Source: an uncultured Candidatus Pelagibacter sp.
Lineage (GTDB): Bacteria > Pseudomonadota > Alphaproteobacteria > Pelagibacterales > Pelagibacteraceae
NCBI GenBank assembly: GCA_905612375.1
Contig: CAJQRS010000050.1
Location: forward strand, 1 to 38,260
DNA: 38,260 nucleotides
Direction: 5' to 3'
In this document: positions 24,948 to 26,679 of the stretch, one piece after another
How the letters are laid out: the number at the start of each line of letters is the position of its first letter
How positions within the stretch are numbered: the stretch's first letter is position 1
Notes under the pieces: generated by a model
The model's input: only the letters and a program-made list of their open reading frames with translations
Database searches by the model: none
What the model was told of the DNA's origin: nothing
Made by a program: the position numbers and the translations under genes

Positions 24948-26024
24948 CTAAGCCTTATCTCCATAATCAGTCATATGTTTAGGAATTCTTTTATTTTTTC
25001 CATACATAAAATGATTTTCCATATTTTCTCTATATTTGCTTGCAGGTACTTTTAATCCTACAGATTCAGCAACCTCTCTAATTAACATTGGATTAGCTCC
25101 ACAGCAGACCCCAAGGTAATTTATACCTAAATCATTTGCTGTTTTTGCAAATTGTCCAATTTCATATCTATTGCAAAAATGTGGATCTAGTGCTGTTGGA
25201 AATGTTCTTCCATGTGGAGATGGGCATTCACAATTACTTCTGTCTGGTAAATTAAAGAATGTTGGATAATCTTCGCTTGTTCTATAAGGGATTGGTAGAG
25301 CGCCTACATGACACTTCACTACTTTTCTTATTTCCTTTAAAAAAGGAAGCATCGTTGAAGGGCCTCTAAAACAATTTAAACCAACCACATCTGCGCCTAG
25401 TTGTTCTAACTTTTTGCAGGTATCTACTACAGATTTTCCATCTCTCATTTTATTTTCACCCATTGGAGAAATTGTTAGAACTGTTGGTAGGCCTGTTTTC
25501 TTCATTATTTCTAATGCTTTAAATGCTTCTTCTGCATAATAGAAAGTTTCACCAATCAACATGTCGGCACCTTCCTCAACAGCCCATCCAATCATTTCAG
25601 AAAACATAGATTCAACTACTTTTTGAGACTCTTTATCATTGTGCTTCCAAATATTTGAGTTTGAAATATTACCCGCCATTAAATTAGGCCTGCTTCCTTG
25701 ATTGAAGTGTCTCTTTGGTGCATCTAGCGCAACCTTTTTTGCGATTTTTAACGCTGCACGATTTAAAGGCTCAAGAAGTTCCTCTTTACCAATAACACGC
25801 ATTTTTTCTCTATGTCCATTATAAGTAAAGGCCTCAACAATATCCGAACCCGCATGTTGAAACTCTCTATGCAAATTCTCTAAGACCTCCGGGTGGTCCA
25901 ACGAAACCATTGGAACAAATTCTCCAGATGCCATAAAACCACGCCTTTCTATTTCAAATAAAAAACCTTCAGCGCATATAACAGGTCCATTATCTAATCT
26001 TTCTTTTAGTCTATTTGTGCTCAT
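24948..26024 (-). CDS. bhmT: Betaine-homocysteine / homocysteine S-methyltransferase
   Basis: Homocysteine S-methyltransferase fold with Zn ligands GLNCFRG and GVCCGANP; preceded by a SAM riboswitch leader. Confidence 0.9.
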   Translation of the reverse strand: MSTNRLKERLDNGPVICAEGFLFEIERRGFMASGEFVPMVSLDHPEVLENLHREFQHAGSDIVEAFTYNGHREKMRVIGKEELLEPLNRAALKIAKKVALDAPKRHFNQGSRPNLMAGNISNSNIWKHNDKESQKVVESMFSEMIGWAVEEGADMLIGETFYYAEEAFKALEIMKKTGLPTVLTISPMGENKMRDGKSVVDTCKKLEQLGADVVGLNCFRGPSTMLPFLKEIRKVVKCHVGALPIPYRTSEDYPTFFNLPDRSNCECPSPHGRTFPTALDPHFCNRYEIGQFAKTANDLGINYLGVCCGANPMLIREVAESVGLKVPASKYRENMENHFMYGKNKRIPKHMTDYGDKA

Positions 26025-26085
26025 TTTTTTTCTCCACGTTTTTTGGAGAAAAAAGGTAACGTTCTAACAAGAGGGTTAAGTTCAT
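26011..26085 (-). CDS. Candidate 24 aa leader ORF overlapping the bhmT start
   Basis: Manual translation MNLTLLLERYLFSPKNVEKKNEHK*. AAGGAG (26102..26097) lies 11 nt upstream of its ATG; its TAG lies inside bhmT, giving a 14-nt overlap. Confidence 0.4.
   Translation of the reverse strand: MNLTLLLERYLFSPKNVEKKNEHK
26026..26054 (-). promoter_or_regulatory. Hairpin sequestering the bhmT Shine-Dalgarno
   Basis: Sense strand TTTTTTCTCC-AAAAAACGT-GGAGAAAAAA: perfect 10-bp stem, 9-nt loop, containing GGAG 7 nt from the bhmT ATG. Confidence 0.6.
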
Positions 26086-26096
26086 AGGCCTCTTTT

Positions 26097-26158
26097 CTCC
26101 TTTTTAGTGCTTAAGCAAAATGCAGGGCGCACAATATGGTTCAACTGCCCGGCTTAAT
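26097..26158 (-). ncRNA. SAM-V-like riboswitch aptamer ending at a Shine-Dalgarno
   Basis: Sense: AAUUAAGCCGGGCAGUUGAACCAUAUUGUGCGCCCUGCAUUUUGCUUAAGCACUAAAAAGGAG. GGGC/GCCC stem, GUUGAACC loop, and 3' CUUAAGC..CUAAAAAGGAG as I recall for SAM-V. Proximal to bhmT. Confidence 0.75.
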
Positions 26159-26170
26159 TTTATAAAAGAT

Positions 26171-26201
26171 AAAAAAAAACCACCTATCTAAAGCGGTGGT
26201 T
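26171..26201 (-). terminator. Rho-independent terminator of the SAM-II expression platform
   Basis: Sense AACCACC-GCTTTAGATA-GGTGGTT followed by a T tract: 7-bp stem, 10-nt loop, upstream of bhmT in its leader. Confidence 0.85.
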
Positions 26202-26207
26202 AAAGCG

Positions 26208-26262
26208 TCGCTTTAGCAGGATTTATAAAGCGCTCTGCAATTTAACTTAACTCAGCGCTATA
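26208..26262 (-). ncRNA. SAM-II riboswitch aptamer
   Basis: Sense AGCGCUGAGUUAAGUUAAAUUGCAGAGCGCUUUAUAAAUCCUGCUAAAGCG. AGCGCU/AGCGCU P1, loop with UUAA..AUUGCA, AUAAAU linker and 3' GCUAAA match the SAM-II pattern. Confidence 0.87.
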
Positions 26263-26319: not shown

Positions 26320-26679
26320 TTATCTAATTCTATTTTCTTCAAAATTCTTATTTAATTTAACTGAAATTGTACGTGTATTTCTTTTATTCCATTCTGAAAA
26401 AGATTTTAATATTGGCATAACCGAAAGACCAAATTCTGTAAGTGAATATTCAACATTTGGTGGCATTATTTGAATAACTTTTCTATTAACTATTCCATCA
26501 GCCTCTAACTCTTTAAGCTGTTTAGATAGCATTTGTTGTGTAATGGTTTTCAATGCTTTTTTAAACTCACCAAATCTCATTTTTTTTCTTTGTAGTAAGC
26601 CAAACAAGATCCTAATTTTCCATTTACCTCCAAGGAAGTAAACTGCTCTTTCTGCTGGACAATCTATTAAGTTTTTCAT
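26320..26679 (-). CDS. HxlR-family winged-helix transcriptional regulator
   Basis: CPAERAVYFLGGKWKIRILFGLLQRKKMRFGEFKKALKTITQQMLSKQLKELEADGIVNR. Confidence 0.95.
   Translation of the reverse strand: MKNLIDCPAERAVYFLGGKWKIRILFGLLQRKKMRFGEFKKALKTITQQMLSKQLKELEADGIVNRKVIQIMPPNVEYSLTEFGLSVMPILKSFSEWNKRNTRTISVKLNKNFEENRIR

Follow-up and report, generated by a model that had tools for sequence, protein, structure and literature searches.

A Shine–Dalgarno copy at the end of a SAM-V riboswitch as a proposed anti-anti-Shine–Dalgarno strand upstream of bhmT in SAR11 bacteria

The minus strand of contig CAJQRS010000050.1 from an uncultured Candidatus Pelagibacter sp. (assembly GCA_905612375.1) carries first a SAM-II-like element together with a terminator-like hairpin, then a SAM-V riboswitch aptamer whose terminal GGAG is followed by a 72-nt spacer, and finally the gene bhmT (Table 1). 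All coordinates refer to the window, the 38,260-nt stretch of this contig that was analysed. The SAR11 bacteria are among the most abundant marine bacterial groups, and bhmT of Candidatus Pelagibacter ubique counts among the founding examples both of SAM-V and of tandem riboswitches with two mechanisms. The original description, and the primary paper, is reportedly that of Poiata et al. 2009. The name bhmT was adopted here from a preliminary description of the same DNA and from the positional match to the HTCC1062 bhmT of PMC2704228. An ORF on the same strand immediately upstream of the leader (26320-26679) appears to resemble a small winged-helix (HxlR-type) regulator.

The element that the preliminary description had called SAM-V-like is a full match to RF01826 (26159-26094; score cutoff, 41 bits) and has both the sequence and the secondary structure of this aptamer. 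By comparison, no Rfam SAM_alpha match was found in the window for the SAM-II-like element at 26209-26260, even at E-values up to 5, and Rfam-based surveys may miss tandems with such elements. The minus-strand coordinates, distances, ORF and hairpins of the preliminary description were all correct base for base. The GGAG at the end of SAM-V (26100-26097) lies 11 nt upstream of an ATG (26085-26083), which opens a 24-codon leader ORF, and 72 nt upstream of the bhmT ATG (26024-26022); the stop of the leader ORF ends 14 nt inside bhmT. A second GGAG, the Shine–Dalgarno sequence (SD) of bhmT, is located 7 nt upstream of the bhmT start codon and lies in a 10-bp hairpin formed by TTTTTTCTCC (26054-26045) and GGAGAAAAAA (26035-26026). 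The two arms of a 6-bp stem, AAGAGG and CCTCTT, are present at 26094-26089 and 26074-26069. In folding, the region was more stable than its dinucleotide shuffles (z = −3.0 in the window; mean z = −3.2 over 37 leaders).

Table 1. Features of the bhmT leader region in the window
Feature	Position	Strand	Remarks
ACCACC...GGTGGT hairpin, then T run	26171..26200	-	intrinsic-terminator-like; by eye
SAM-II-like element	26209..26260	-	upstream tandem member; by eye and from the published HTCC1062 tandem (PMC2704228)
SAM-V riboswitch aptamer	26094..26159	-	Rfam RF01826, full-length match, 85.6 bits
Strand A, SAM-V-end SD (GGAGAAAAGAGG)	26089..26100	-	GGAG 26100-26097, then AAAAGAGG
CCTCTT apical motif	26069..26074	-	partner of AAGAGG in the 6-bp stem
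Strand B (CCTTTTTTCTCC; also written CCUUUUUUCUCC)	26045..26056	-	anti-SD, able to pair with A or C
Strand C, bhmT SD GGAG + A's (GGAGAAAAAA)	26026..26035	-	10 bp with B
24-codon leader ORF	26011..26085	-	not conserved beyond near relatives
bhmT	24948..26024	-	betaine-homocysteine methyltransferase, 358 aa

One pairing was absent from the preliminary description. The 5′ arm of the hairpin that masks the bhmT SD (strand B) can also pair with the end of SAM-V (strand A), 26100-26089 matching 26056-26045 over 12 bp, one of them G-U. Because B is complementary both to A and to strand C, which carries the bhmT SD, A and C compete for B. They have GGAGAAAA in common, and at the GGAG end the helices A:B and B:C exclude one another. 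For the isolated leader of the window, the predicted minimum free energy (MFE) of −18.8 belonged to the A:B fold; when the first GGAG was blocked, the B:C fold was obtained at −18.4. The two folds of the isolated leader are thus nearly equal in energy, and the leader is predicted to be bistable. A role of A:B as intrinsic terminator was ruled out, as B is not followed by a U-tract.

We collected bhmT loci from SAR11 genomes and found two main leader layouts. The proximal layout has the SAM-V GGAG 7-12 nt upstream of bhmT and lacks B and C. In the distal layout, of which we obtained 40 distinct leaders, the GGAG starts 68-80 nt 5′ of the bhmT ATG. The usual RF01826 platform, with the SD of the aptamer adjoining the start codon and directly occluded, is not what these 40 leaders present. 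Their separate SD near the bhmT ATG is GGAG (GAGG in the leader L026), a SAM-II-like core was recognized by motif in 37 of them and a terminator-like motif in all 40, and the encoded proteins range down to 74% identity to that of the window. On the bhmT tree there were 8 changes between leader classes, at least 5 of them forced, a rough count based on regex-derived labels by which several SAM-V leaders were called 'noSAMV'. A search of IMG/VR with bhmT as query gave no match.

Two further arrangements were seen. In L033, L036 and L126, 131-141 nt separate SAM-V from bhmT, a short ORF starts directly after the SAM-V SD, and a long hairpin again has the SAM-V GGAG at its base. In L047, L050, L106 and L118, the U-tract of a SAM-II-like terminator directly precedes SD and ATG, with no intervening SAM-V.

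The distal layout of the window is shared by L026, whose bhmT occupies exactly 1126234-1127292. Meyer et al. 2009 placed a SAM-II/SAM-V tandem before bhmT in HTCC1062 at 1127293-1127553 (PMC2704228). Since the coordinates fit this tandem, L026 is very probably the HTCC1062 bhmT, an identification made on coordinates alone.

The A:B pairing is kept in nearly all distal leaders: in an automatic scan, the first 9 nt of A paired 9/9 with B in 35/37 leaders, and B paired with C at 7-9 of 9 positions in 37/37. For L022 and L090, the register of B was set by hand from folds, and the A:B counts of both are thereby lower. No full 9/9 partner of B type was found in the 32 other SAM-V downstream regions scanned (proximal bhmT, metY, mmuM), and CTCC, present in 33/37 distal leaders, occurred in 0/32 of these regions. 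In this comparison, a B-type strand is specific to the distal layout. The comparison of SAR11 leaders divided the claims of the preliminary description: the pairing of the masking hairpin is kept, and the leader ORF is not conserved outside near relatives. Prediction and comparison together point to two exclusive, conserved helices, one of them masking the SD of the gene, as in an anti-SD/anti-anti-SD arrangement.

We compared the pairing energies of native arms with those of arms exchanged between leaders. In this swap test, which removes relatedness only partly, native arms paired better for the inner stem (−4.9 vs −3.2 kcal/mol), for the whole A:B helix (−19.5 vs −16.0 kcal/mol) and for B:C (−11.8 vs −10.7 kcal/mol), with 0/2000 swaps as low in each case. 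When the set was reduced to 19 leaders sharing less than 85% identity, the counts per 5000 swaps were 0 for the inner stem, 0 for whole A:B, 8 for lower A:B and 23 for B:C; the corresponding numbers for 10 leaders were 13, 0, 91 and 90. Individual exchanges were in keeping with pairing. The near relatives L064 and L028 differ by C-to-U in the 5′ arm and, correspondingly, by G-to-A in the 3′ arm. At pair position 7, most leaders have U in B and A in both the A and C strands; in the L030 group, B carries C at this position, and the A and C strands both carry G.

The GGAG/CUCC core is nearly invariant and uninformative for co-variation, and the high conservation of B leaves only modest co-variation in the lower stem. 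RNAalifold and a covariance model on a MAFFT alignment of the leaders yielded no consensus pair, which we attribute to misaligned A strands and to the two conflicting structures; they were replaced by block-wise arms and swap tests. The AAGAGG/CCTCTT stem, which had been described as placing the leader ATG in its loop, failed as a conserved OFF-state helix, showing no co-variation in the arm-swap test (2581/5000 shuffles as low). CCC or CCT is present in the apical region of 38/40 distal leaders vs 39% expected from shuffles (26069-26075 in the window), and this apical CC[CT] does not co-vary with strand A.

The crystal structure paper on SAM-V proposes that SAM binding forms a helix P2a between nucleotides 14-15 and part of the SD, and that the SD at the 3′ end of the aptamer is free without SAM (PMC6061858). 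The corresponding aptamer strand of the distal leaders is nearly always AACC, which is complementary to the GG of A. We simulated SAM binding only by blocking nucleotides, the pseudoknot and triplex lying outside the energies; under these terms, blocking the two G's of A in the isolated platform lowered the median open probability of C from 0.75 to 0.0003, the value for the window falling from 0.587 to about 1.6×10−5, at an energy cost of 0.1-6.1 kcal/mol. In a longer model that comprised the aptamer sequence and 40 nt of the coding region, blocking AAAAAGG gave a change of more than 10-fold in 34/40 leaders (median ratio, 963) and of less than 10-fold in the other 6/40. In this longer context, the accessibility of C was low even when unblocked (median 0.038; window 0.008), so that absolute levels are uncertain. 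In several isolated leaders, including the near relatives L055, L003 and L056, B:C was the MFE fold even without blocking, which shows that the balance between A:B and B:C varies between leaders. P2a spans the two G's only, and the inner A:B stem is present in both states in many leaders.

We hypothesize that SAM governs a strand exchange in which A, the SAM-V copy of the SD, and C, the bhmT SD, compete for B; we assign this reading a probability of roughly 0.7. Without SAM, A would be free to form the long A:B hairpin, leaving C open and bhmT translated. With SAM bound, P2a would hold the two G's of A, B would pair with C, and bhmT would be off. The SAM-V 'SD' would then not be a working ribosome-binding site; we propose that it serves as an anti-anti-SD, or decoy SD. 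The SAM-II element and the terminator would act earlier, on transcription, as published, and the leader ORF would be at most accessory, in some lineages. We infer control of the exchange by SAM, the non-ribosomal role of A and the direction of the effect. In HTCC1062, bhmT mRNA and protein increase under sulfur limitation (PMC5069961), and the sign of this response agrees with the strand exchange, part of the rise being attributed to SAM-II.

The preliminary description had instead linked the two elements by translation: at low SAM, the SAM-V SD would be freed, and ribosomes on the leader ORF would melt B:C and expose the bhmT SD. Part of that interpretation stands, namely a distal bhmT SD, a conserved masking hairpin, no direct masking by SAM-V and the need for an extra linking step. 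Such coupling predicts the same sign as an RNA-only model, and in the window and its near relatives the leader ORF has good SD spacing and a stop that overlaps bhmT. The ORF and this overlap are kept in the window and in five near leaders (L055, L003, L056, L026 and L058), and in the HTCC1062-like L026 a 3-nt length difference preserves the frame. Moreover, in leaders bearing the ATG, 12/12 ORFs are in one frame relative to bhmT. However, only 12/40 distal leaders have an ATG located 4-21 nt downstream of the SAM-V GGAG; the other 28, sister leaders among them, lack it and keep A, B and C. The leader ATG underwent at least 6 state changes on the bhmT tree. In the absence of SAM, A:B is also predicted to hide the first SD in most leaders (median open probability 0.05), an objection to leader initiation that is weaker in the window, where the value is 0.25. 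Among the closest relatives, amino-acid-changing and silent differences are both seen, and the evolution of the ORF looks roughly neutral. The rarity of the ATG, its changes on the tree and the null result for the second stem mean that leader translation is mostly not supported as a general mechanism and no longer serves as the main link; we regard it as very unlikely, although in the clade of the window the ORF could provide additional coupling. Direct strand exchange, in contrast, would link SAM-V with the bhmT SD without need for translation. The frame shared by the 12 ATG-bearing leader ORFs (e.g. L002, L030, L059 and L090) comprises few independent cases and may be due to chance. A fusion of the ORF with bhmT through programmed slippage at eight consecutive A's was ruled out, as the number of A's varies between leaders.

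Two other explanations dispense with exchange altogether. The A:B helix might merely stabilize the mRNA or space the aptamer, the B:C complementarity being a by-product of purine-rich SDs. Part of this complementarity is indeed automatic, as A and C both consist of GGAG and A-rich sequence, but native B:C pairs better than swapped B:C, also after thinning to 19 leaders (23/5000), and it often extends beyond GGAG, as with UUCUUCUCC and GGAGAAGAA in the L030 group. We consider such a passive structure quite unlikely. Alternatively, the riboswitch SD could recruit the 30S subunit from a distance, with translation starting at the downstream AUG, as in the standby model for Sinorhizobium meliloti metA, where the SAM-II SD is needed although the start of translation is 74 nt further downstream (PMC9373788). 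Standby calls for a downstream start without an effective SD of its own, but the bhmT start in distal leaders has a GGAG-type SD, judged by its presence and not by its strength. Moreover, the predictions mostly show the upstream SD paired when the switch is ON, and standby needs no B strand that pairs with both SDs. Of the readings considered, we find this one the least probable. It is also conceivable, though unlikely, that functions are combined: where a leader ATG exists, the SAM-V SD copy could be both anti-anti-SD and working ribosome site, with ribosomes disrupting B and latching bhmT on. Such a leader would integrate SAM with ribosome availability, and the apical CC[CT] would be a further contact site.

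If the strand exchange is true, the accepted direct-occlusion account does not hold for bhmT, constructs ending at the aptamer lack the real switch, and an SD-like aptamer sequence can serve as an anti-anti-SD instead of a ribosome site. SAM-V has been described as acting directly on the adjacent ribosome-binding site (PMC2704228, PMC9481103, PMC6061858). For the Pelagibacter ubique bhmT tandem (PMC9481103, PMC11508383), which is the same locus and gene, a review states that SAM-V controls access to the ribosome-binding site directly. SAM binding to a bhmT SAM-V RNA has been published from calorimetry (PMC6061858), and the 52-nt riboswitch used is too short to contain A, B and C.

The bhmT leader resembles the metY/mmuM type of RF01826 in its aptamer, in the SD at the 3′ end and in being presumed OFF with SAM. 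In metY and mmuM, the SD of SAM-V itself serves an adjacent start, typically within 10 nt (PMC2704228), whereas the bhmT start is ~72 nt away and is preceded by an SD of its own, for whose anti-SD the SD of the aptamer competes. The SAM-II riboswitch of S. meliloti metA is similar to distal bhmT in its distant start, 74 nt from the riboswitch SD; mutation of this SD abolished translation from the distant start, and the authors propose standby (PMC9373788). The same mutant phenotype would follow from a strand exchange, which offers a testable alternative reading. Inspection by eye of SAM-II loci across Alphaproteobacteria, a set in which we did not recognize the metA leader of S. meliloti, revealed no clear similar platform. 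E. coli btuB (PMC11162775) likewise has alternative helices, one masking the SD and the other freeing it, but in the leaders described here the proposed anti-anti-SD is an SD copy that ends an H-type pseudoknot aptamer. Alternative anti-SD and anti-anti-SD helices are thus already known, and what differs here is the use of the SAM-V copy of the SD as the proposed anti-anti-SD.
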